From positions 1 to 31,060 of the IMG/VR virus record IMGVR_UViG_3300030061_002579: a stretch of 31,060 bases of DNA; one strand, 5' to 3'. Shown piece after piece: positions 8,401-30,932 of the stretch. Source of the DNA: a virus. Both the position numbers and the translations under genes were made by a program. The stretch's first letter is position 1. Each line of letters begins with the position of its first letter. The notes below the pieces were generated by a model, which was not told the origin of the DNA, did no database searches, and worked only from the letters and a program-made list of their open reading frames with translations.

Positions 8401-8515
8401 TTCATTAAGTGGAGGAGTTAAATCTGGGCCACCGCCTAAGAGAGGACCGAATCCACAAGGAATAAAAGTTCAAGATGGCAAAAAACTCTTACGAAAGTCT
8501 TTCAGAAAAAAATAA
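8381..8515 (+). CDS. Small basic protein (44 aa), probably truncated by the homing endonuclease
   Basis: A TTG at 8381 inside the portal 3' end, preceded by GAGAGAG, opens a 44-codon frame with a very protein-like sequence: LSGGVKSGPPPKRGPNPQG, then KVQDGKKLL and a basic end. Gly-Pro-rich, basic short proteins of this kind follow the portal in related marine phages as I recall them. The frame runs 41 bases into the endonuclease gene starting at 8475 and ends in SFRKK within it. A likely reading is that endonuclease insertion replaced the original C terminus. The unusual start codon and short length keep confidence moderate. Confidence 0.55.
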   Translation: MKQRKNNSLSGGVKSGPPPKRGPNPQGIKVQDGKKLLRKSFRKK

Positions 8516-8837
8516 AATACTTTTCCTAGCTGGTCTTTTTGATGGTGAAGGAAGTTTTGGTATTTGGGGTAAGGGTAATGGAAGAAAAACATTTCAATGT
8601 GGTATTGAGATGTGTGATAAAGATATTTTAGATAGATTTTCTGATTTTTTTGGCGGTAATGTAATGAAAGTGCGAATAAGAAAGCCAAATTGGACACAAA
8701 CCTGGAGATGGAGACTATCTGGTACAAGGGCTTACGAATGTATAGATATTTTGATAGAATACATGTGTTTAAGAAGACAGGAGAAATACTATAATGTGGT
8801 TAAGCGCGATAAAATTAGCCGTCTCTGCTGGAAGTAA
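8475..8837 (+). CDS. LAGLIDADG-family homing endonuclease
   Basis: Residues 18-29 read LAGLFDGEGSF, a clear LAGLIDADG motif, with the catalytic acidic position probably E25. At 120 residues with one motif visible it would act as a homodimer, cutting a long pseudo-palindromic site in genomes that lack the element so that the gene is copied in. It has only a weak ribosome site. It overlaps the 44-aa basic gene at its 5' end and the next membrane-protein gene by 44 bases at its 3' end, and carries the AGGAGA site used by that gene. No intron boundaries or intein residues are seen, so it looks free-standing. Confidence 0.85.
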   Translation: MAKNSYESLSEKNKILFLAGLFDGEGSFGIWGKGNGRKTFQCGIEMCDKDILDRFSDFFGGNVMKVRIRKPNWTQTWRWRLSGTRAYECIDILIEYMCLRRQEKYYNVVKRDKISRLCWK

Positions 8838-11213: not shown

Positions 11214-11431
11214 TGGACATAGATACAATATCACTCGTACAACATAAAGTTAAGAAAGCTCTAGCTAGACTCAAGTCACACGCTATATATGGTGTTGACA
11301 CCATGGAGAAACTACAATATGTTAGGGGTCAAATCAGATCTCTTGAAGATCTGCAACAGGATCTAAAAGACCTGCTGACAACAACGGAGTATGAAGATGA
11401 TAGAGTCCACGGAGACACCGAAACGGACTGA
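11213..11431 (+). CDS. Small helical hypothetical protein
   Basis: This 72-residue protein starts at the ATG overlapping the methyltransferase stop. It is predicted to form two helices: VQHKVKKALARLKSHAIYG (about 9-27) and KLQYVRGQIRSLEDLQQDL (about 33-51). Its tail is acidic. Size and helix pattern recall small phage proteins placed before the head genes, without a known function. The last 35 bases overlap the GroES-like gene, suggesting translational coupling. Confidence 0.65.
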   Translation: MDIDTISLVQHKVKKALARLKSHAIYGVDTMEKLQYVRGQIRSLEDLQQDLKDLLTTTEYEDDRVHGDTETD

Positions 11432-11843
11432 AGCTCTTCTAGATGCCTACAAGGCAAAAGAAGAAATAGAAACAGTCCTTGATCCAAAAGCGATCGACAA
11501 ATCAACATTAGATAAACTACCAAACCCAACTGGATATAGACTTTTAGTTCTGCCTTTTGCAGGACCTAAGAAAACTAAGGGTGGTCTTTGGTTATCTGAT
11601 GCAACACAAGAAACAATACAGATGACTACAGTTTGTGGTCTGGTATTAAAAATGGGAGATCTTTGTTATCACGATAAAGATAAATTTCCTAAAGGGCCTT
11701 GGTGCAAATTAAATGAATGGATAATTTTTAGTAGGTACGCAGGTTCAAGATTCAAAATAGACGGAGGAGAAGTAAGAGTTTTAAATGATGATGAAGTCAT
11801 TTCAACTATAAGCGACCCCAACGATATTTTGCACCATTACTAG
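11397..11843 (+). CDS. GroES-like co-chaperonin
   Basis: The 148-residue product contains a Cpn10 barrel: NPTGYRLLVLPFAGPKKTKG at 43-62, a flexible SDATQETIQMTT stretch at 67-78 where GroES has its mobile loop, then CGLVLKMGDLCY, WCKLNEWIIFSRYAGSRFKI, and the terminal strands VRVLNDDEVISTI. A 40-residue extension precedes the barrel. I prefer ATG 11397 to 11391 because GGAG at 11386-11389 is then seven bases away. Phage GroES analogues such as T4 gp31 replace the host cap on GroEL to fold the capsid protein. Its position just before scaffold and capsid genes fits that role. Confidence 0.85.
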   Translation: MIESTETPKRTEALLDAYKAKEEIETVLDPKAIDKSTLDKLPNPTGYRLLVLPFAGPKKTKGGLWLSDATQETIQMTTVCGLVLKMGDLCYHDKDKFPKGPWCKLNEWIIFSRYAGSRFKIDGGEVRVLNDDEVISTISDPNDILHHY

Positions 11844-20899: not shown

Positions 20900-21358
20900 A
20901 TGGCACTTGTCATTAACGATAGAGTTAAAGAGACAAGCACTACCTCGGGAACGGGAACGTTAAACCTAGCTGGTGCTTCTCAAGACTTCATTACTTTTGT
21001 AGCTGGAGTAGGTACAACTAATACTACGTATTATTGTATTACCGAAACAGGTACAGATAAATTTGAAGTTGGTATTGGAACCGTTACCGATGCCTCTCCA
21101 GATACTTTAGCAAGAGACACGGTTATAAGTAATTCATCAGGAAACACATCTAAAATAGATTTTGGTTCAGGAGAGAAAGAAGTCTTTTGTACTATCCCTG
21201 CTAAAAAAGCAATGTCACCTGTTATGGAAGCAACAGGTTATGTTGTAACTCATGCATCTACATTAGATGAAGTTCAAACAATGGACTCTGGTGTTTTAGC
21301 AGGACCAGTGACAATAACAGGAACAATAACAGCAACAGGAACATTGGTAATTATTTAA
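20900..21358 (+). CDS. Short tail-fibre-type protein
   Basis: This 152-residue protein has the start MALVINDRVKETSTTSGTGT, then LNLAGASQDFITFVAGVGTT and YYCITETGTDKFEVGIGTVT. This sequence signature occurs at the N termini of many marine phage tail fibres or as a separate short fibre protein. The tail contains VVTHASTLDEVQTMDSGVL and repeats of TGTITATGTL. It probably docks the large glycine-rich proteins that follow, since its stop overlaps the ATG of the first of them. GAGAGG precedes the ATG. Confidence 0.8.
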   Translation: MALVINDRVKETSTTSGTGTLNLAGASQDFITFVAGVGTTNTTYYCITETGTDKFEVGIGTVTDASPDTLARDTVISNSSGNTSKIDFGSGEKEVFCTIPAKKAMSPVMEATGYVVTHASTLDEVQTMDSGVLAGPVTITGTITATGTLVII

Positions 21359-22836
21359 TGAGTAAGATAGAAGTAAATGAAATAGATGCGCAATCAGGCA
21401 GTACAATTACTGTAGGATCAGCATGTAAATCAATTGCAATTCCAGGTAATGTTGTAAAAACAAATGCTGTGCAAGCTTCTGATGGTGGTAACATAATTAG
21501 TCAATGTGGAGCAACCATAACATTAGGTGCAAGTGGCGATACCGTTACTCTTGCATCAGGTTCATCTCAATCAGGGTTCGGGAGAACAGGAACTGTAAAT
21601 TGGGATACAACTAAAAAGACAGCTTCTTTCACTGCAGTAAGTGGAGAAGGTTATTTTGTAGATACTTCTAGCGCAGCAATCACAGTAACATTACCTGCTT
21701 CACCTTCTCAAGGGGATATCGTAGCCGTAGCAGATTATGCTGGAACTGCAGGAACTAATGCGATTACATTAGCAAGAAATGGTTCTAACTTTGAAGGGGC
21801 GGCTAACGATGGTCAAATTACTGGAAATAGAAATACACTAACAGTAGTTTATGTTGACGCAACACAAGGTTGGGTACCTGTTAATGAAAATGTTGGTTCT
21901 TCAGAAAAAAATATATTTATTTCAGCAACAGGTGGAACCGTTACAACTTGCGGAGATTTTAAAATTCACACGTTTACAGGGCCTGGAACTTTTTGTGTTT
22001 CAGCGGGTGCAGGTCCAGTAGCAAAAGTAGATTATGTAATAGTAGCTGGTGGAGGTGGTGCTGGTGGTTCTACTAACCCTGGTGGTGGAGGCGGCGGTGG
22101 CGGTGCTGGTGGTTACAGAGAATCACATTGCGCTACAACATCGGGACCTTACACTGCAAGTCCATTAGCAAATCCAACTTCTTTACCAATCTCACCAGGA
22201 GCAATACCTGTTACTGTAGGTGCAGGTGGAGCAGGAGGTCCTCCTAACGTAGGTGCTTCTTTTGGTAATGATTCCATATTTTCAACAATAACAGCTTTTA
22301 GAGGTGGCTATGGAGGTATGAATGGTCCAGGTTTTCCATCTCCTTATCAACCTCAACCTTGGCAACCTGCTGGAAGAGGTAGATTACAAGGTGGTTTAGG
22401 TGGTTCAGGTGGTGGAGCAGCAATTTTTAGTGGTCAAGGAAATGCTTGTGGTAACACACCACCAGTAAGTCCTCCTCAAGGAAGTCCAGGTGGTGATGGT
22501 GGATCTGCATCACAATATGGTGGTGGAGGTGGCGGTGGAGCTACAGCAGCAGGAGCAGATGCTAATCCAAATGGTGGGAATGGTGGAGCTGGAGCAACAT
22601 CATCAATTACTGGATCACCAGTTACGAGAGCTGGAGGTGGAGGTGGAGCCTCTACGAGTGGAACTGATGGTTCAGGAGGATCAGGAGGCGGAGGAAACGC
22701 AACTTCTCCTGGTGGCACAGGAGGTGCAGGATCAACTAACACTGGAGGTGGTGGAGGTGCTGGTGGATCACCAACGAATGCTACAGGTGGTGCAGGTGGC
22801 TCTGGTATAGTAATAATAAGGTATAAATTTCAATAA
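21358..22836 (+). CDS. Glycine-rich tail adhesin-like protein 1
   Basis: This 492-residue protein is the first of three tandem paralogues. Residues 1-75 form a beta-rich N-terminal repeat region (NAVQASDGGNIISQCGATIT). Residues 76-180 are a shared middle domain (GYFVDTSSAAITVTLPASPS). Near 187-215 comes ATGGTVTTCGDFKIHTFTGP, then a glycine-rich C-terminal region to residue 480, with PPVSPPQG at 368-375, ending SGIVIIRYKFQ. Phage tips rich in glycine can pack as polyglycine II helices that expose variable loops to bind the host (known for some tail adhesins). Receptor binding is therefore likely. The ATG overlaps the preceding stop. Confidence 0.85.
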   Translation: MSKIEVNEIDAQSGSTITVGSACKSIAIPGNVVKTNAVQASDGGNIISQCGATITLGASGDTVTLASGSSQSGFGRTGTVNWDTTKKTASFTAVSGEGYFVDTSSAAITVTLPASPSQGDIVAVADYAGTAGTNAITLARNGSNFEGAANDGQITGNRNTLTVVYVDATQGWVPVNENVGSSEKNIFISATGGTVTTCGDFKIHTFTGPGTFCVSAGAGPVAKVDYVIVAGGGGAGGSTNPGGGGGGGGAGGYRESHCATTSGPYTASPLANPTSLPISPGAIPVTVGAGGAGGPPNVGASFGNDSIFSTITAFRGGYGGMNGPGFPSPYQPQPWQPAGRGRLQGGLGGSGGGAAIFSGQGNACGNTPPVSPPQGSPGGDGGSASQYGGGGGGGATAAGADANPNGGNGGAGATSSITGSPVTRAGGGGGASTSGTDGSGGSGGGGNATSPGGTGGAGSTNTGGGGGAGGSPTNATGGAGGSGIVIIRYKFQ

Positions 22837-22838
22837 TT

Positions 22839-24500
22839 ATGACAAGTAAAATAAAAGTAGATAATATAACAGACCAAGATGATAACGCAGTTATCTCTAG
22901 ATGTGGTTCAACACATACAGTAACTGCTGAAGTTTATAAAGCAGATACTATTAAAGATACAAGTAATAATACTTATATTGCTAAATGTGGTACAACTTTA
23001 ACTCTTGGTGGATCTGGTCAAACATTAGCTTTAGCAGCAGGAACAACAAATGAATTAGGTGGTGGAGGTATTGATTGGCAAACAACTCCTAAGACAGCTA
23101 ATTTTAATGCAGCAGCAGGAGAAGGATATTTTGTAGATACTTCATCTAATGAAGTAACAGTTACCTTACCAGCAGGAGTTGCTGGTGAATCAGTAACTGT
23201 TTTAGATTATATAGCTAATGCAAATACAAATGAAATATTTTTAAAACCACAGTCAGGTGAAAAAATTGAAGGTGGCACAGATGGTCAAGTTGTAGCTACA
23301 ATTAGGCAAGCAACTACTTTAGTATATTCGGGTTCTACTCAAGGCTGGTTAGTATCAAGTTCAGGAGATTCAGGTCCTATTCAAACTCCTACAATCACTT
23401 TTGCTACTGCTTCAGGATCTTTAGGAACACTCGATGATAATAATAGAACAGACCCTAATGGTAATTTATCTCCTGTTACTGCAACGGCAAATTTTGGAAC
23501 TTTAACATATTCAATACAATCCGGATCACTACCTTCAGGTTTAACTTTAAATTCCTCTACAGGTGCGTTTGTTGGATCTGCAGATTCTGTAGGAACCAAC
23601 ACTACTTCAAATTTTACTGTTCGAGCCACTATTACAGAAACAGGCACATTTTCTGATAGAGCTTTTAGTATTACAGTTCAATCAGCTCTTTTTGTAACAG
23701 CAACAGGTGGAACAGTTAATACTACAGGTGATTTTAAAATTCATACTTTCAACGGTCCTGGTACTTTTACAGTTTCTTGTGCTGGAAATCCTACAGGCTC
23801 TAACACTGTAGATTATATGGTTGTCGCTGGAGGAGGTGCTGCACATACCTCTGGACCTGGTGGAAAAGGTGGCGGTGGAGGAGCAGGAGGATTTAGAACA
23901 TCTTCTGGTGCTGCCTCTGGATGTTATTCTACATCACCATTAGGATCAGGTGTTTCTGCACTTCCAGTATCAGTTCAAGGTTATCCAATTACAGTCGGAG
24001 GAGGAGGTAGTGGAGCACCAAATAGAGTAGGAACTTCTAACAGTGGGGGAAGTTCAAGTTTTTCAAATATAACATCTGCAGGAGGTGGAGCAGCTGGTGG
24101 TAATGAATCATCTGGTAATGGAACAAACGGAACGTCTGGAGGATCAGGCGGTGGTGGAGGGGGTGGTAGCTCTTTCAATGGAAGTGGTGGTTCTGGAAAT
24201 TCTCCACCTGTAAGTCCACCACAAGGAAATTCTGGAGGTTCATCGTCATCAAGCCCACAAAGAGGTGGTGGAGGTGGCGGAGCTGGAGGATCTGGTGGTA
24301 CACAAGGCGCTGGATCAGGAACATCAAGTTCTATTACTGCTAGTCCAGTTACTTATTCAGAAGGTGGTACAGGTTTTCCTGGACCTGCTTCTGGAGGACC
24401 TTCTAACAGTGGAGATGGAGGAAGTGGTACTAGAGGTGAAAATGTTCCCGCAGCAGGTGGAGGTTCTGGTATAGTGGTGATAAGGTATAAGTTTCAATAG
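22839..24500 (+). CDS. Glycine-rich tail adhesin-like protein 2, with an Ig-like insert
   Basis: At 553 residues this is the longest paralogue. It has the same N-terminal and middle domains (GYFVDTSSNEVTVTLPAG). An extra domain of about 90 residues lies between them and the glycine-rich part: FGTLTYSIQSGSLPSGLTLN then STGAFVGSADSVGTNTTSNF, a clear He_PIG-type putative Ig fold. The glycine-rich part again follows ATGGTVNTTGDFKIHTFNGP, has PPVSPPQG at 456-463, and ends SGIVVIRYKFQ. The Ig-like insert may lengthen the fibre or bind glycans. There is no ribosome site of note, so translation probably follows from the upstream gene two bases away. Confidence 0.85.
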   Translation: MTSKIKVDNITDQDDNAVISRCGSTHTVTAEVYKADTIKDTSNNTYIAKCGTTLTLGGSGQTLALAAGTTNELGGGGIDWQTTPKTANFNAAAGEGYFVDTSSNEVTVTLPAGVAGESVTVLDYIANANTNEIFLKPQSGEKIEGGTDGQVVATIRQATTLVYSGSTQGWLVSSSGDSGPIQTPTITFATASGSLGTLDDNNRTDPNGNLSPVTATANFGTLTYSIQSGSLPSGLTLNSSTGAFVGSADSVGTNTTSNFTVRATITETGTFSDRAFSITVQSALFVTATGGTVNTTGDFKIHTFNGPGTFTVSCAGNPTGSNTVDYMVVAGGGAAHTSGPGGKGGGGGAGGFRTSSGAASGCYSTSPLGSGVSALPVSVQGYPITVGGGGSGAPNRVGTSNSGGSSSFSNITSAGGGAAGGNESSGNGTNGTSGGSGGGGGGGSSFNGSGGSGNSPPVSPPQGNSGGSSSSSPQRGGGGGGAGGSGGTQGAGSGTSSSITASPVTYSEGGTGFPGPASGGPSNSGDGGSGTRGENVPAAGGGSGIVVIRYKFQ

Positions 24501-24507
24501 GTAAATT

Positions 24508-25926
24508 ATGAGTGAAGTAAAAGTAAATAAAATTAGTCCAAGAACAGCGTGTGGTACGACTACATTAGGAGATAGTGGAGATACATTCACAATTCCTGCT
24601 GGTGTAACTATTACAAACTCTGGAACAGCAGCAGGATTTGGTTCTACTGGTGAAATATCTTGGGACACTACAAAAAAAACAGGTGATTTTACAGGAGCTT
24701 CAGGTGTAGGATATTTTGTAGATACAACAAGTGGAGTTGTAACAGTAACTTTACCAAGTTCGCCTAGTGCAGGAAATGTAGTGGGTGTTTCAGATTATAA
24801 TGGAACTGCAGGCATAAACAATATTACTATTGCTAGAAATGGTTCTAACATAAATGGTGATGCTTCTAATTTTACAATATCTAAAGATTTTTCAGCTGTT
24901 CAACTTATTTATATAGATGCAACAGTTGGTTGGCAAACTGTATTTACAGGAAGCACTTCAGACGTACAAAATCCTTTTTTAACAGCAACAGGTGGTACAG
25001 TAACAACTTGTGGAGATTTTAAAGTTCACACATTTACAGGTCCAGGAACTTTTACAGTTTCAACACTAGGTACAACTGCATCTAATAATGAAGTAGATTA
25101 TTTAGTAGTAGCTGGTGGCGGTGGTGGAGCTGTAGATATCGGCGGCGGTGGTGGCGGTGGTGGTACTAGATTTAGAGCTGGAACTTTTTCTGTTCCTAGC
25201 CCACTTGCACCAATAGGTGCGCCAGCAGGAGTTACAGTAACAGCTACTGCTTTCCCAATTACAGTTGGTGCGGGCGGAACTGCTAGCGCATCACCACCCG
25301 CTCCTGTTGGAGGATCCGGAGGTGTTTCAACTTTTTCAACAATTACATCAGCTGGAGGAGGTGGTGGAGGAAAATTATTAACTGCAGGAGTCAACGGTGG
25401 AAATGGTGGTGGAGCTGGTGGTCCAAATTCAGCTGCTGGTCCTATAGCAGGAGGATCTGGAAATACACCGCCTGTTAGTCCCGCTCAAGGAAAAAATGGT
25501 GGTACTGCTTTAGGAGGAACTCCTTATAGTCCAGGACCAAATTTTGATGGAGCTGGTGCAGGTGGTGGCGGAGTTCAATCTGCTGGTTCCAACAGTGGAC
25601 CTACTTCTCCTCCCTCTCCCGCTTTTGTTGCAACTGGAGCTGGTCCTGGTGGTGCAGGAATGCCTTTTCCAGCAAATTCTTTTCAATCTTCTGCTACAGG
25701 TTATGGTGGCGGAGGCGGTGGTGGTGGTTACAATTGTGGTGGTGGTAATCCAAGACCTGCAGGAACAGCTACAGATGGTGGTGGTGCTGGTGGTTTTACT
25801 GGCGGACAAGCAGGAACAGCAGGAACAACCAATAGAGGTGGTGGCGGTGGCGGTGGCGCAGGAGCTAATGGTGCTGGTGCAGCCGGTGGATCAGGTATAG
25901 TAATAATAAGGTACAAATTTCAATAA
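24508..25926 (+). CDS. Glycine-rich tail adhesin-like protein 3
   Basis: This 472-residue paralogue has a shorter N-terminal repeat region (about residues 1-45), then the common middle domain (GYFVDTTSGVVTVTLPSSPS), ATGGTVTTCGDFKVHTFTGP, and a long glycine-rich region. It carries PPVSPAQG at 321-328 and the same end, SGIVIIRYKFQ. The glycine-rich loops differ much from the other two, while the ends stay conserved at protein and DNA level. The stop overlaps the ATG of the first oxygenase gene (TAATG), tying fibre and oxygenase translation together. Confidence 0.85.
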   Translation: MSEVKVNKISPRTACGTTTLGDSGDTFTIPAGVTITNSGTAAGFGSTGEISWDTTKKTGDFTGASGVGYFVDTTSGVVTVTLPSSPSAGNVVGVSDYNGTAGINNITIARNGSNINGDASNFTISKDFSAVQLIYIDATVGWQTVFTGSTSDVQNPFLTATGGTVTTCGDFKVHTFTGPGTFTVSTLGTTASNNEVDYLVVAGGGGGAVDIGGGGGGGGTRFRAGTFSVPSPLAPIGAPAGVTVTATAFPITVGAGGTASASPPAPVGGSGGVSTFSTITSAGGGGGGKLLTAGVNGGNGGGAGGPNSAAGPIAGGSGNTPPVSPAQGKNGGTALGGTPYSPGPNFDGAGAGGGGVQSAGSNSGPTSPPSPAFVATGAGPGGAGMPFPANSFQSSATGYGGGGGGGGYNCGGGNPRPAGTATDGGGAGGFTGGQAGTAGTTNRGGGGGGGAGANGAGAAGGSGIVIIRYKFQ

Positions 25927-26537
25927 TGAATTTCGAAACAATACCTTTGTTTTCACATCCTATTAATATTTTTAATTTAAATTTTAATACGCAACAAAGT
26001 GAGAAAATACAAGAAATTATTAATTCAACAGAATATAGATTAAACGATAGTGGTAATGCTTTTATAAGTAAAAATTTAAAAGTTTTAGAATATCCAAAAT
26101 TAAATTTTTTAAAAGATGAATTTAGCAAAGCACTCAATGAATTTAACGAAAAAATTATGGGTTATGAAAAAAATAATTTAAAAATTACTACAAGTTGGTT
26201 TACTAAATGTGAGCCAGGTCAACAGTCCCACAGACACAACCACAAAAATAGTTTATATTCAGGAGTCTACTATAACAATGTAGATGATTATTCAAAAATA
26301 TTATTTTATAATAATGATTGGAGAGGAAACAATTATCAATTAAAAATAAATGATTACAATTTTTATAATTCAGATACATGGTCAATAGAACCTAAAAGCG
26401 GTTCTTTAATCATATTTCCCTCTTACTTATCACATAAAATAATAAAAAATAATTCTACAAAAACTAGGTATTCTTTAGCTTTTAATTGTATTCCTAGACC
26501 CCCATATGGGGATGCAGATTCTTCTGTGAGGTCTTGA
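25926..26537 (+). CDS. 2OG-Fe(II) oxygenase family protein, TIGR02466-like
   Basis: This 203-residue protein shows the double-stranded beta-helix pattern of Fe(II)/2-oxoglutarate oxygenases. TSWFTKCEPGQQSHRHNHKN at 89-108 holds the first metal ligands (H102, H104 or H106). LIIFPSYLSHKI at 161-172 supplies H170, and TRYSLAFN supplies R181 to hold 2-oxoglutarate. The layout resembles the TIGR02466 group common in marine phages. The reaction would be hydroxylation or other oxidation of an unknown substrate. It starts on the stop of the third adhesin gene, and its last codons carry the -35 of a promoter for the next gene. Confidence 0.8.
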   Translation: MNFETIPLFSHPINIFNLNFNTQQSEKIQEIINSTEYRLNDSGNAFISKNLKVLEYPKLNFLKDEFSKALNEFNEKIMGYEKNNLKITTSWFTKCEPGQQSHRHNHKNSLYSGVYYNNVDDYSKILFYNNDWRGNNYQLKINDYNFYNSDTWSIEPKSGSLIIFPSYLSHKIIKNNSTKTRYSLAFNCIPRPPYGDADSSVRS

Positions 26538-26562
26538 ATAGAATTAAAAACAAATATATAAT
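26534..26562 (+). promoter_or_regulatory. Sigma70-type promoter at the end of the first oxygenase gene
   Basis: TTGAAT at 26534-26539 and a perfect TATAAT at 26557-26562 are 17 bases apart. The start would fall near 26569, downstream of AGGAG (26563-26567) and about five bases before ATG 26574. Transcripts from here would be nearly leaderless, while read-through mRNA keeps the ribosome site. Confidence 0.55.
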
Positions 26563-26573
26563 AGGAGTTAATT

Positions 26574-27023
26574 ATGGCACATTTTGCAAAACTAGGAGCT
26601 AACAGTAAAGTTATTCAAGTATTAACACTTGATAATAAAGATATGTTAAATGCTGACGGAGTTGAAGACGAAGCAGTAGGACAACAATATTTAGAAACAC
26701 ATAATAATTGGCCTGCACAAATGTGGATTCAAACTTCATACAATACATCAGGTAATCAACATAAAGATGGCGGAACACCTTTAAGAGGTAATTACGCAGG
26801 TATAGGTTACACTTGGGACGAAGATGATCAAATATTTTGGCCTAAAAAACCTTATGCATCTTGGGTAAAACACATGGAATCAGCTTCTTGGAAATCACCA
26901 ATCGGTGATGCTCCAGCATTAACTACTGAACAAGAATCACAAAATGAAGCTGGTACTCATGATTGGAATTACGTTTGGAATGAAGATAACACAACTTGGG
27001 ATTTGACAGACTTTAAAGCATAA
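26574..27023 (+). CDS. Tail-associated protein of a common marine phage type
   Basis: This 149-residue protein starts MAHFAKLGANSKVIQVLTLD then NKDMLNADGVEDEAVGQQYL. It contains QTSYNTSG, GNYAGIGYTWDEDDQIFWP near 72-90 and PYASWVKHMESASWKSPIG. This is a distinctive small protein I associate with tail and fibre regions of marine T4-like and podovirus-like phages, often in several copies. Function unknown; a fibre tip or fibre chaperone role is plausible. It interrupts the oxygenase run and has its own promoter-like element. Confidence 0.8.
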   Translation: MAHFAKLGANSKVIQVLTLDNKDMLNADGVEDEAVGQQYLETHNNWPAQMWIQTSYNTSGNQHKDGGTPLRGNYAGIGYTWDEDDQIFWPKKPYASWVKHMESASWKSPIGDAPALTTEQESQNEAGTHDWNYVWNEDNTTWDLTDFKA

Positions 27024-27041
27024 TTTATATACGGTGGTGGT

Positions 27042-27545
27042 ATGCAAAAGAAAGTATTATCAGAAGTAAGTTTATATTACGGTGATGTGGCAATGCCTAA
27101 AGATTGGGACATTGACCGAGATAAATTATCAGGCGACATTTTACAATCATCTTCTACGAATAGAGAATTTCCATTTTCAAGAACTTGGGATATGTTGAAT
27201 ACATATATGCGAGATCATATTGGTCTTGAGTATGGTATCAATCTTGTTAATAAAAATTCTTGGGGTGATATTTATAAACCAAATCAAACATCAAAACCAT
27301 TATTAGATGTAGATCCAGTTGATCTTAGAAACTCACCAGACTTTACATTACTGTATGGTGTTAAAGTTGATAAGTGTTGGGTTCGAATACATTATGAAGA
27401 TAACAGACGTAAAGGCAGATCTTGGGATATAGAACTTACTAACAATAAATTTATTATGTTCCCATCTACGAATATGTATTACTTAACTAATAATCAAAAG
27501 GATAGTTTAAATTTCGTACAAACTATAACGTATGAATATATCTAA
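27042..27545 (+). CDS. Oxygenase-fold-like protein lacking metal ligands
   Basis: This 167-residue protein contains LYYGDVAMPKDWDIDRDKL near 11-29 and a C-terminal half, VRIHYEDNRRKGRSWDIEL then NNKFIMFPSTNMYYLTN. The FIMFPS strand aligns with the IIFPS or IVFPS strands of its neighbours. Where they have a metal-binding His (SHKI, WHRV, EHEF) it has NMYYL, and no HxD is seen upstream. It is therefore probably a degenerate double-stranded beta-helix protein, perhaps a binding or scaffolding subunit. The call depends on motif alignment by eye. It overlaps the next gene by 14 bases. Confidence 0.6.
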   Translation: MQKKVLSEVSLYYGDVAMPKDWDIDRDKLSGDILQSSSTNREFPFSRTWDMLNTYMRDHIGLEYGINLVNKNSWGDIYKPNQTSKPLLDVDPVDLRNSPDFTLLYGVKVDKCWVRIHYEDNRRKGRSWDIELTNNKFIMFPSTNMYYLTNNQKDSLNFVQTITYEYI

Positions 27546-28170
27546 TTATTATTGGTATTTTAAATCTGCATTAACACCTAGATTTTGTGATGAAGTAATT
27601 AAATATGCCAACGAACAAAAAGAAGTTATGGCAAGAACAGGTGGTTATGGTGACAGAAAATTAAACAAACAAGAAGTATTAGATTTAAAAAGAAAAAGAA
27701 ACTCTGATTTAGTATGGCTCAATGATACTTGGATATACAAAGAATTACACCCATACATTCACGAAGCAAATAAAGCAGCTGGTTGGAATTTTGATTGGGA
27801 AAGATCAGAATCTTGTCAGTTTACAAAATATAAACACAATCAGTATTATGATTGGCATTGTGATAGTTGGAATAAACCATACGACAGGGGAGATTCTAAT
27901 AATCCAGAGCATGGCAAAATTAGAAAACTATCTATGACTTGTCAGTTGACAGATGGTTCAGAATATAGTGGTGGAGAACTAGAGTTTGATTTTAGAAACT
28001 ACGATCCACATATGCGAGATGAATCAAAACATAAAATACAATGTAAAGAGATTTTACCAAAAGGTTCTATCATTGTATTTCCTTCATTTGTGTGGCATAG
28101 AGTTAAACCAGTAACATCAGGCACAAGATATAGTCTTGTTGTTTGGCATTTAGGAAAGCCGTTTAGATAA
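27532..28170 (+). CDS. 2OG-Fe(II) oxygenase, PKHD/prolyl hydroxylase-like
   Basis: This 212-residue protein has the full set of catalytic residues. HNQYYDWHCDSWNK gives H109 and D111. IIVFPSFVWHRVKPV gives H189. SGTRYSLVVWHLG gives R199 for 2-oxoglutarate. LSMTCQLTDGSEYSGGELEF at 133-152 is the typical core strand pair of P4H/PKHD-type hydroxylases. Members hydroxylate proline or other residues in proteins, and some act on small molecules; the substrate here is unknown. It is the clearest active enzyme of the cluster. Its stop shares a base with the next ATG (TAATG). Confidence 0.9.
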   Translation: MNISNYYWYFKSALTPRFCDEVIKYANEQKEVMARTGGYGDRKLNKQEVLDLKRKRNSDLVWLNDTWIYKELHPYIHEANKAAGWNFDWERSESCQFTKYKHNQYYDWHCDSWNKPYDRGDSNNPEHGKIRKLSMTCQLTDGSEYSGGELEFDFRNYDPHMRDESKHKIQCKEILPKGSIIVFPSFVWHRVKPVTSGTRYSLVVWHLGKPFR

Positions 28171-28799
28171 TGTATATAAATAATTATTTTAATACAACCA
28201 TTTGGTCAGAACAAAAACCAGAGTTTGTAAAATCATTAAACAAAGCTTCTAATAAGTATATTAAAGATGCAAGAAACAGAGAAAAGAAATTTATTAAAGA
28301 ACACGGTGACTTTGGAAGATCGTATCATTCAACACCACTCACAATGGATAATGACTTCTTAGATTTTAGAAATTATATTGGTCAAAAGTCTTGGGAGTAT
28401 TTAGATCACCAAGGTTATGATATGTCACAATATACAACTATGTTTAGTGAGCTATGGGTGCAAGAGTTTGCTAAAAAAGGTGGTGGTCATCATTCTGCAC
28501 ACATTCATTGGAATCAACACGTATCAGGTTTTTATTTTTTAAAGTGCAGTGATAAAACATCATACCCAATTTTTCATGAACCAAGAACAGGTGCACGTGC
28601 AACTAAATTAAAAATGAAAGATCAAAAAGGTGTATGGGGTGGTAGTGAGCTTATACATTTTAAACCTAAACCTGGAACTTTAATTATATTTCCAGGATTT
28701 TTAGAACATGAGTTTAGTGTAGATTTTGGTATAGAACCATTTAGATTTATACATTGGAACATACAAGCCGTACCAAAAGAGATGGCAAAAGATGTTTAA
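28170..28799 (+). CDS. 2OG-Fe(II) oxygenase family protein, TIGR02466-like
   Basis: This 209-residue protein has ELWVQEFAKKGGGHHSAHIH at 94-113 followed by WNQHVSGFYFLK, a His-rich strand for the first metal ligands. TLIIFPGFLEHEFSV supplies H180 and EPFRFIHWN supplies R192. The arrangement matches the first enzyme of the cluster (25926) more than the PKHD type at 27532, so at least two subfamilies are present. Substrate unknown. It overlaps the next gene by eight bases, consistent with joint translation. Confidence 0.8.
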   Translation: MYINNYFNTTIWSEQKPEFVKSLNKASNKYIKDARNREKKFIKEHGDFGRSYHSTPLTMDNDFLDFRNYIGQKSWEYLDHQGYDMSQYTTMFSELWVQEFAKKGGGHHSAHIHWNQHVSGFYFLKCSDKTSYPIFHEPRTGARATKLKMKDQKGVWGGSELIHFKPKPGTLIIFPGFLEHEFSVDFGIEPFRFIHWNIQAVPKEMAKDV

Positions 28800-29367
28800 A
28801 GAATATAAATTACCTTTTGATTCTTTTATAGGTGGATGGTTTATACCTAAAAAAACTTGTGATGATATTGTAAAATATTTTGATGAAAATGAAGAAATGA
28901 GAACTCAAGGTAAATTTGGAACTAATAACGAATTTTACGTTGATAAAAAAACTAAAGATTCAACAGACATATCTATAAATAATTATAATCTTGATGATGA
29001 AATAATTGAATACAGAAAACAATTACAAAAAGTATTAAATCTTTATCAAAAAAGATATGAAACTGTAAAAAATCTTTCTAAATTTAATCTTGAAGGTTTT
29101 AACATACAAAAATATCCAAAAAAAGGTGGCTATAAAATTTGGCATAATGAAAGAAGAAGTCCTTTTACTGCAAGAAGAGTATTAACTTTTATGACTTATT
29201 TAAATGATTGTGATAGTGGAGGAACAGAATTTATGTATCAAAAATTAATTACACCTGCAAAAAAAGGATTAACTTTAATTTGGCCTGTTGATTTTACACA
29301 CATACATAGAAGCCAAATTTGTAATCAAGAAAAAATAATAACAACAGGATGGTTTTATTTTATATGA
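28792..29367 (+). CDS. 2OG-Fe(II) oxygenase-like protein with HxE site
   Basis: This 191-residue protein has FNIQKYPKKGGYKIWHNERR at 103-122, where H118 and E120 stand in the usual HxD position. RRVLTFMTYLNDCDSGGTEF at 128-147 is the P4H-like core, LTLIWPVDFTHIHRSQ supplies H170 or H172, and KIITTGWFYF ends the fold. Lys181 may take the part of the Arg that usually holds 2-oxoglutarate, as in prolyl 4-hydroxylases. HxE in place of HxD is accepted by some members of the superfamily. Substrate unknown. Its stop overlaps the next start (ATGA). Confidence 0.75.
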   Translation: MFKEYKLPFDSFIGGWFIPKKTCDDIVKYFDENEEMRTQGKFGTNNEFYVDKKTKDSTDISINNYNLDDEIIEYRKQLQKVLNLYQKRYETVKNLSKFNLEGFNIQKYPKKGGYKIWHNERRSPFTARRVLTFMTYLNDCDSGGTEFMYQKLITPAKKGLTLIWPVDFTHIHRSQICNQEKIITTGWFYFI

Positions 29368-29987
29368 GTTTTAAAAAAAATAAATATACAATTATTCGGC
29401 AAGCAATATCAAAGGACTTAGCATCTTTTGTTGCTAATTATTTTTCAATGCAAAAACAAGTTTATGATACTAGTATACAAGCAAGATACTTTTCACCATT
29501 TGAAAATATTATAGGTCATTATGAAAGTAAAAATGAACAGATACCAAATACCTATAGTCAATATTCTAATATTGCTATGGAAACATTAATGTTAAAATGC
29601 CAACCTAAAATGGAAGAAGTCACAGGTTTAAAACTATACCCTGCTTACACTTATGCAAGAATTTATAAAAAAGGTGATGAACTTAAAAGACACAAAGATA
29701 GATTTAGTTGTGAAATATCAACCACTATGAATCTTGGTGGAGATCCTTGGCCTATATATGTTGAGCCATCTGGTAAAGAAGGTTTAAAAGGAATTAAAGT
29801 AGATTTAAAACAAGGTGACATGTTAGTTTACTCTGGGTGTGAACTAGAGCATTGGAGAAATAAATTTAAAGGTAAAGAATGTGTACAAGTTTTCTTACAT
29901 TATAATAATCGTAAAACACCAGGTGCAAAGGATAATATGTTTGATAAAAGACCTCATCTAGGTCTTCCTTCGTGGTTTAAGCGATGA
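29364..29987 (+). CDS. 2OG-Fe(II) oxygenase family protein
   Basis: I start at ATG 29364 because it forms an ATGA overlap with the preceding stop; ATG 29349 would add five residues. The 207-residue protein has YARIYKKGDELKRHKDRFSC at 97-116, giving H110 and D112, and KQGDMLVYSGCELEHWRN, giving H163. A terminal strand follows (KECVQVFLHY). A long C-terminal tail, RKTPGAKDNMFDKRPHLGLP, extends past the fold. The canonical HxD...H triad suggests an active enzyme. It is the last of the cluster and is followed by a promoter and hairpin, so the oxygenase unit ends here. Confidence 0.8.
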   Translation: MSFKKNKYTIIRQAISKDLASFVANYFSMQKQVYDTSIQARYFSPFENIIGHYESKNEQIPNTYSQYSNIAMETLMLKCQPKMEEVTGLKLYPAYTYARIYKKGDELKRHKDRFSCEISTTMNLGGDPWPIYVEPSGKEGLKGIKVDLKQGDMLVYSGCELEHWRNKFKGKECVQVFLHYNNRKTPGAKDNMFDKRPHLGLPSWFKR

Positions 29988-30053: not shown

Positions 30054-30932
30054 ATGTTAGGTATTACAGCTTTATCACAGTCTCCGATAGCTTCTTTAGG
30101 AGGAACTAATGTTAATGTTGCCGTTACAGGTTCACAGTTAACAGGTTCTATTGGTGCTTCAACTACAACAGCAAATGCAAATGTAAATGTAACAGGATCT
30201 CAATTAACAGGATCTTTAGGAAATTCTACTATAGATATAAATACCAATGTAAGTGTTACAGGTTCTCAGTTAAATAGTTCTATTGGAAGTGTTACTGCTC
30301 AAGCTGGAGCAAGTGCTGCAGTAACTGGATCACAATTAACAATGTCTATGGGAGAAGAGACTCTTGTAGGAAATGCAGATGTTCCAGTCACAGGATCTCA
30401 ATTAGGTTTATCACTTGGAACATATTCTGTAAGTGCTGATGGTAATGTAAGTGTAATTGTTACTGAACACGATATGGTTATGTCAACAAATGATGTTGAT
30501 ATAACAGGTGATGCAAATATTACAGTTACAGGAAGTCAAGCTACATTTTCAGTAGGATCTGTTTTAGCTTCAATAAGCAAAGACGTTGATGTTACAGGAA
30601 GTCAATTACAAACATCAAGTGGTTCTGTAACAACTACCGCAGACGCTAATGTAAATGTTACAGGTTCACAAATAACAGCATCTTTAGGAGAAGAGACTGT
30701 TGATATAAATACGCCTGTAGATGTGATAGGGTCTCAATTAACTGCATCAATTGGCACCGCAGTAGCTGTTCCTGGAGTGGACGTTTTAGTTACAGGTATG
30801 CAATTAACAGGTTCTATTAATAGCCCATTAGTTACAGCATGGTCTAACGTAGATCCAGGTGTTACTAATACTTGGACTGAGGTAAATAAAGGAGTATCTA
30901 ACATTTGGACAGAAGTTGATAAGGCAGCTTAA
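30054..30932 (+). CDS. Repeat protein of about 22-residue VTGSQLTxSxG units, tail-fibre-like
   Basis: This 292-residue protein consists of about eleven imperfect repeats with the core VTGSQLTGSIG and a linker such as STIDINTNVS. One degenerate copy reads VTEHDMVMS. There are no cysteines and very few charges, as in beta-solenoid or beta-helical shafts. The last 31 residues change to WSNVDPGVTNTWTEVNKG and a second WTEVDK, a small repeated Trp motif also seen at the ends of marine phage fibre proteins. AAGGA precedes ATG 30054. It probably forms a fibre or a surface layer of the virion; host binding is inferred only. Confidence 0.8.
   Translation: MLGITALSQSPIASLGGTNVNVAVTGSQLTGSIGASTTTANANVNVTGSQLTGSLGNSTIDINTNVSVTGSQLNSSIGSVTAQAGASAAVTGSQLTMSMGEETLVGNADVPVTGSQLGLSLGTYSVSADGNVSVIVTEHDMVMSTNDVDITGDANITVTGSQATFSVGSVLASISKDVDVTGSQLQTSSGSVTTTADANVNVTGSQITASLGEETVDINTPVDVIGSQLTASIGTAVAVPGVDVLVTGMQLTGSINSPLVTAWSNVDPGVTNTWTEVNKGVSNIWTEVDKAA
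30108..30836 (+). repeat. Coding tandem repeats, about 66 bp each
   Basis: Eleven consecutive units of 21-24 codons encode the VTGSQLTxSxG protein repeats. The DNA copies differ at many third positions (ACAGGTTCACAG, ACAGGATCTCAA), so the array is old or under selection against exact repetition. It still offers a path for copy-number change by recombination. Confidence 0.8.

Follow-up and report, generated by a model that had tools for sequence, protein, structure and literature searches.

We report that a 31 kb virus record (IMG/VR IMGVR_UViG_3300030061_002579, 31,060 nucleotides; the whole stretch is referred to as the window) carries a block of seven genes, here denoted A to G, right after three genes for glycine-rich adhesins that end at position 25926 (Table 1). 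Five of the seven encode oxygenases that have a metal site (A, D, E, F and G), one is a dead copy (C) and one is unrelated to the others (B). Comparison of gene order and adhesin composition among phages suggests that the block constitutes a phage-encoded hydroxylase bank, which would modify the adhesins mainly at proline, and we put the probability of this reading at roughly 0.5. If true, it would represent a post-translational modification system for virions; the role of phage oxygenase genes has been a question from 2010 or earlier.

We assign the window to the HTVC023P-type pelagiphages: at its right end it shares 83-85% identity with Pelagibacter phage HTVC023P and with 023Pt_psg01 over approximately one third of its length, and the gene order of the oxygenase region agrees with HTVC023P. 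The oxygenase cluster is real but already known, since multi-oxygenase loci of this group have been published, with eight non-orthologous oxygenases colocated with "ferrochelatases" (Wittmers 2022, PMC9599517). Together with the 24 oxygenase genes of S-SCSM1 (PMC9602691), this means that the first-pass annotation of the window, which noted that single oxygenases are common in marine phages, understated the matter. Within the literature searched, three points appear to be new: gene G is reassigned, B emerges as a companion of the adhesins, and adhesin proline covaries with the oxygenases.

Members of the oxygenase block

The gene positions and overlaps given in the first-pass annotation agree with the open reading frames (ORFs). 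The start codon of A overlaps the stop codon of the third glycine-rich gene (TAATG), and four further junctions overlap: C-D by 14, D-E by 1, E-F by 8 and F-G by 19 bases. Of the six oxygenase-fold genes claimed there, five have metal sites and one is degenerate (C), but B had been left out of the block. As to the metal ligands, A and E have HxH where D and G have HxD.

A, D, E and F score above the curated Pfam cut-off for 2-oxoglutarate (2OG)-Fe(II) oxygenase families (PF13759 or PF13640). In A, residues H104, H106, H170 and R181 are invariant in the alignment, as are H111, H113, H180 and R192 in E; A matches the PDB entries 3BVC/2RG4 at about 1e-20, E also matches TIGR02466 and both structures, and hhalign pairs E with A at 98.5%. 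Their HxH...H ligand set is compatible with metal binding and differs from the canonical 2-His-1-carboxylate arrangement. The same set is present in 3BVC and 2RG4, which are solved structures of uncharacterised proteins, and the cofactor chemistry of PF13759 (the family of A and E) may differ from that of canonical 2OG oxygenases. In D, H109xD111, H189 and R199 are unchanged across 20 aligned proteins, and the HxD/E...H triad of D, F and G is invariant or nearly so in the alignments. D matches the prolyl-4-hydroxylase 5C5T (2.8e-7) and also PiuC, F matches the bacterial prolyl-4-hydroxylase 3ITQ (1e-9), and hhalign pairs F with D at 96%; on this sequence similarity, D and F are the members of the bank nearest to prolyl-4-hydroxylases.

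These family assignments bear on the idea that the products of the block act on nucleic acids, as oxygenases for the repair or hypermodification of DNA or RNA. The superfamily does contain AlkB and TET/JBP, and DNA repair has been proposed for cyanophage members (Weigele 2007, as cited in PMC3037559). The members of the block, however, are PF13640/PF13759 proteins or have prolyl-hydroxylase-like folds, the genes sit in a structural region, the AlkB-like family PF13532 is touched by only 4 of 46 G members (E 0.014), and nearby "DNA endonuclease V" labels lack Pfam support. We therefore consider this role very improbable. The short proteins so labelled lie within oxygenase banks of three other contigs (L004:11952-12431, L232:11344-11832 and L007:15663-16175).

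Gene G has no Pfam match, and its sole library matches are phrog_2954, which bears the name ferrochelatase, and its relative phrog_3531. Nevertheless, we count it as the fifth oxygenase-fold member because of its invariant HxD...H site and its predicted fold. Specifically, H115xD117 and H168, as well as R104, R170 and Q180 (candidates for contact with the 2OG carboxylate), are invariant in an alignment of 46 members, and the AlphaFold2 model (predicted local distance difference test, pLDDT, 89) has the double-stranded beta-helix fold according to Foldseek. The model gave 700 PDB matches at E≤0.001, of which the 50 best are all 2OG oxygenases, prolyl hydroxylases among them, the top match being the prolyl hydroxylase 4IW3 (E 4.1e-9). 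Ferrochelatase was rejected for G: PF00762 matches none of the 46 members at E≤1 and no ferrochelatase fold is among the 50 best structural matches. The label on this large marine phage family (phrog_2954 / T4-GC 615; G of the window and genes on L223, L231, L232 and L235) thus appears to be an annotation error that goes back at least to 2010. It is discussed as real in two papers, and published claims on phage ferrochelatases as oxygenase partners (PMC9599517) and on the seasonal enrichment of phrog2954 taken as ferrochelatase (PMC11561400) would need rereading if the family consists of oxygenases.

The entry 4IW3 is a Pseudomonas putida prolyl hydroxylase that was solved with EF-Tu, which could point to hydroxylases directed at host proteins, e.g. 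translation factors or ribosomal proteins, that reprogramme translation in infection. We find this improbable; the match is at the level of the fold (14% identity) and uninformative on substrate, and such a role leaves both the position beside the adhesins and the adhesin proline content described below unexplained.

For C no profile match was found in the family libraries, and hhalign relates it to A (74%). Its AlphaFold2 model (pLDDT 78) matches PHD2, prolyl-4-hydroxylase and 3BVC in Foldseek at E about 1e-4 and template modelling scores of about 0.5-0.6, so that the structure predictions for G and C both support the oxygenase fold assumed in the first-pass annotation. No His is invariant among 38 C members and metal ligands are lacking, while the motif DNRRKG.SWD is invariant. 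On these models C is a conserved pseudoenzyme that has retained the oxygenase fold only. Gene B, in contrast, was rejected as an additional oxygenase, since it has no Pfam similarity to them and hhalign gives <0.5% against every other member of the block.

In the 147 contigs collected via C or G, the genes mostly follow the order B-C-D-E-G, with A and F variable and at several positions, and some contigs have nine detected oxygenases. Since dozens of contigs have this order, a chance arrangement is excluded. Nor is a recent tandem duplication supported as the source of all six oxygenase-fold genes: profile comparison joins A with E and D with F, places C near A only and leaves G apart, which argues that several lineages probably contributed to the bank. 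A defence system was also rejected, the PADLOC matches being generic CRISPR-associated 2OG models only.

Table 1. Adhesin genes, oxygenase block and downstream gene in the window (all matches as E-values).
Feature	Coordinates	Strand	Evidence
Glycine-rich adhesin gene 1	21358..22836	+	translation C-terminus GGSGIVIIRYKFQ; contains NTPPVSPPQG
Glycine-rich adhesin gene 2, immunoglobulin-like He_PIG and Gly_rich_2	22839..24500	+	PF05345 7e-10, PF21722 2e-7
Glycine-rich adhesin gene 3	24508..25926	+	PF21722 6e-10; contains NTPPVSPAQG
Gene A, PF13759/TIGR02466 oxygenase, HxH...H...R, accessory	25926..26537	+	PF13759 6e-21, TIGR02466 3e-17
Gene B, phrog_7759, adhesin-linked, non-oxygenase	26574..27023	+	phrog_7759 5e-31
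Gene C, predicted oxygenase-fold pseudoenzyme without metal site	27042..27545	+	AlphaFold2 model, Foldseek, hhalign to A
Gene D, PF13640 2OG-Fe(II) oxygenase, prolyl-4-hydroxylase/PKHD-like	27532..28170	+	PF13640 9e-16
Gene E, PF13759 oxygenase, HxH...H...R	28170..28799	+	PF13759 2e-12
Gene F, PF13640 2OG-Fe(II) oxygenase, prolyl-4-hydroxylase-like, HxE...H...K, accessory	28792..29367	+	PF13640 1e-7
Gene G, predicted oxygenase-fold protein, HxD...H, "ferrochelatase" in PHROGs and GenBank	29349..29987	+	phrog_2954 2e-54
Gene H, repeat-rich, weakly stalk-like	30054..30932	+	VTGSQL repeats; PF05662 below cut-off

Gene B and the adhesin neighbourhood across phages

B, a small protein, accompanies glycine-rich adhesins in phages of several groups: its gene comes directly after a glycine-rich ORF in 504 of 577 loci, and is no more than 1 kb from one in 556, compared with 275 of 4565 (6%) other genes on the same contigs that lie directly behind such an ORF. 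Its relatives are found in podo-, autographi- and myoviruses of Pelagibacter, Roseobacter, Methylophilales, cyanobacteria and Pontimonas, and in freshwater or groundwater phages, and we regard it as a candidate adhesin chaperone or cap. B (phrog_7759) is also present at loci where no oxygenase was detected.

When loci were picked by B alone (five sets), an oxygenase was present within 3 kb in 205 of 428 (48%), with 80/127 for the HTVC025P, 63/89 for the Greip, 45/70 for the DSL-LC04, 14/66 for the ctn9Y15 and 3/76 for the CRP-207 set. The adhesin-B-oxygenase order is found in HTVC023P podophages and, with varying layouts, in other groups. HTVC025P-like contigs have one to four adhesin-B pairs followed by F-D-A, and in the cyanomyovirus S-SM1 a glycine-rich gene and B precede a bank ending with two G genes. 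The DSL-LC04-like freshwater phages have A between adhesin and B as in the window, their A being about 35% identical to that of the window. In HTVC008M and two contigs (L187/L201) the bank is on the opposite strand and convergent with the adhesin-B pair, and the link between adhesins and oxygenases is therefore not one of simple read-through.

Moreover, the positions of PF13640/PF13759 genes in 11 complete genomes were rotated as a block, conditional on genomes that carry G or B; 29 of 71 lie ≤6 kb from a PF21722 (Gly_rich_2) gene against 7.6 expected (p=5e-5). Five large genomes found through G alone gave 15 of 49 against 3.9 expected (p=2.5e-4).

Adhesin proline and the putative hydroxylase bank

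The amino-acid content of the glycine-rich core was measured in adhesins that have oxygenases nearby and in those that do not. Proline is the single residue among the 20 that differs in the HTVC025P group, at 3.6% with and 2.1% without oxygenases (p=1.3e-5). To remove shared descent we placed 494 B loci on a B tree and took phylogenetically independent pairs; proline was higher beside D/F than where there was no oxygenase in 24 of 28 pairs (p=3.7e-5). No other residue passes correction in these pairs, and the locus GC content does not differ and does not account for the rise in proline. Strict scoring gave 22 of 24 pairs, selection of loci without regard to oxygenases gave 20 of 24, and the two combined gave 18 of 21 (p=0.003, which narrowly misses significance once corrected for 20 residues). 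A difference as large as the observed one arose in 0 of 200 label permutations. As raw means, uncorrected for descent, proline amounts to 2.0% with no oxygenase, 3.2% with A only, 5.6% with D/F and 7.4% with D-E-G.

Other candidate signals did not hold. An excess of lysine and cysteine in the raw comparison was gone in the independent pairs. The motif PPVSPPQG, which occurs in 84 of the 212 adhesins that have oxygenases and in 1 of the 130 that lack them, was rejected as a general target; it is confined to the HTVC023P-like lineage and hence confounded by descent, for which reason it was replaced by the independent-pair test.

The simplest reading is that D/F hydroxylate adhesin proline, because these are nearest to prolyl-4-hydroxylases, although the data are a correlation and not catalysis. 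The adhesins and B would be produced together with the oxygenases; D/F, perhaps with A, E and G, would hydroxylate residues of the glycine-rich domain, chiefly prolines of GPG/NPG turns and of loops like TPPVSPPQG; C could hold the substrate or serve as a scaffold, and B could assist assembly or form a cap. Hydroxylation might then give a stiffer or more diverse receptor-binding tip. A wider proposal, to which we hold more tentatively than to the reading for the window, is that several unrelated, abundant marine phage groups hydroxylate prolines of their own glycine-rich receptor-binding proteins by dedicated prolyl-hydroxylase banks, with enzyme set and substrate composition co-evolving. The proline covariation offers a concrete and cheap test of oxygenase function.

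Several observations weigh against hydroxylation of the adhesins. It is deduced from genes and composition; proline content is a correlate that could instead be driven by host or adhesin type, and the tree behind the independent pairs was built from one short protein (B). Other proteins of the same contigs show a small, non-significant rise in proline (only 14 usable pairs), and nine CRP-207 adhesins near oxygenases show none. Furthermore, 42 of the 71 oxygenases in the 11 complete genomes are >6 kb from a glycine-rich gene, many of them in T4-like phages, and genes for unrelated enzymes (tryptophan halogenase, carbamoyltransferase and haem oxygenase) share the same neighbourhoods in large phages.

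The last two points, together with the finding that A and F differ between close relatives, would suit auxiliary genes that have gathered at a recombination hot spot beside the fibres and act on small molecules or host 2OG levels, functionally unlinked to the adhesins. Published interpretations are of this kind: 2OG drawdown and nitrogen signalling for cyanophage oxygenases (Sullivan 2010, PMC3037559), and auxiliary metabolic genes that are partners of true ferrochelatases (PMC9599517). Such cargo does not, however, predict that unrelated phages would have oxygenases beside one and the same adhesin-B pair, nor does it predict the convergent layouts or the proline covariation, and we judge it rather unlikely. 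The fibre link, which the first-pass annotation drew from adjacency, has gained independent support from the repeated arrangement in unrelated phages, the rotation test and the proline data, and the survey of related contigs that it proposed did reveal co-occurrence of oxygenases and glycine-rich adhesins. The link is not exclusive, since CRP-207 adhesins with B also occur without detected oxygenases.

With respect to earlier work, the words "tail fiber" are absent from PMC9599517 and no adhesin link is drawn there; our literature searches, whose coverage did not extend to subscription papers, found no prior report linking tail fibres to hydroxylation or dioxygenases. The Phold paper notes that phage oxygenases resemble human EGLN3 (PMC12774648). 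Infection by HTVC027P, another HTVC023P-type phage, raises host iron uptake (PMC12753301), which fits a demand from iron enzymes; that study named one oxygenase gene as a reason alongside others.

Elsewhere in the window, gene H downstream of the block may be another tail protein, the ORF at 8475-8837 is homing endonuclease-like and that at 11391-11843 resembles a GroES-type co-chaperonin (the latter two by sequence impression only), and a tRNA scan found no tRNA genes.

Comparison with known systems

The HTVC023P-type loci of Wittmers 2022 are from the same phage group and have the same genes as the window, with the difference that their "ferrochelatase" is predicted here to be an oxygenase-fold protein. 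The cyanophage sets (S-SCSM1 and the banks of Syn10, S-SM1 and P-RSM4) also comprise numerous diverged PF13640/PF13759/PhyH oxygenases in each genome, some of them in runs beside fibre genes. They differ in that the pseudo-member C, present in the window, was not seen in the cyanophages examined, and their published reading is host metabolism or DNA repair. In Syn10 (L222:9455-15546) approximately ten overlapping genes beside fibre genes, annotated as hypothetical, are nearly all oxygenase, JmjC or DUF6445-like.

Prolyl-4-hydroxylases such as 3ITQ and 5C5T, the latter of which we take to be the viral enzyme from PBCV-1, are like D and F in fold, in the HxD/E...H plus R/K site and in having significant sequence similarity, while the identity is low. 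With regard to the presumed substrate, gp38 of Salmonella phage S16 would be comparable with the marine adhesins as a glycine-rich receptor-binding tail protein, and it is not known to be a target of any oxygenase. The marine proteins differ from this polyglycine-rich adhesin (Dunne 2018, as cited in PMC6957217) in their membership of PF21722, in the frequent C-terminus GGSGIVIIRY and in having B behind them.

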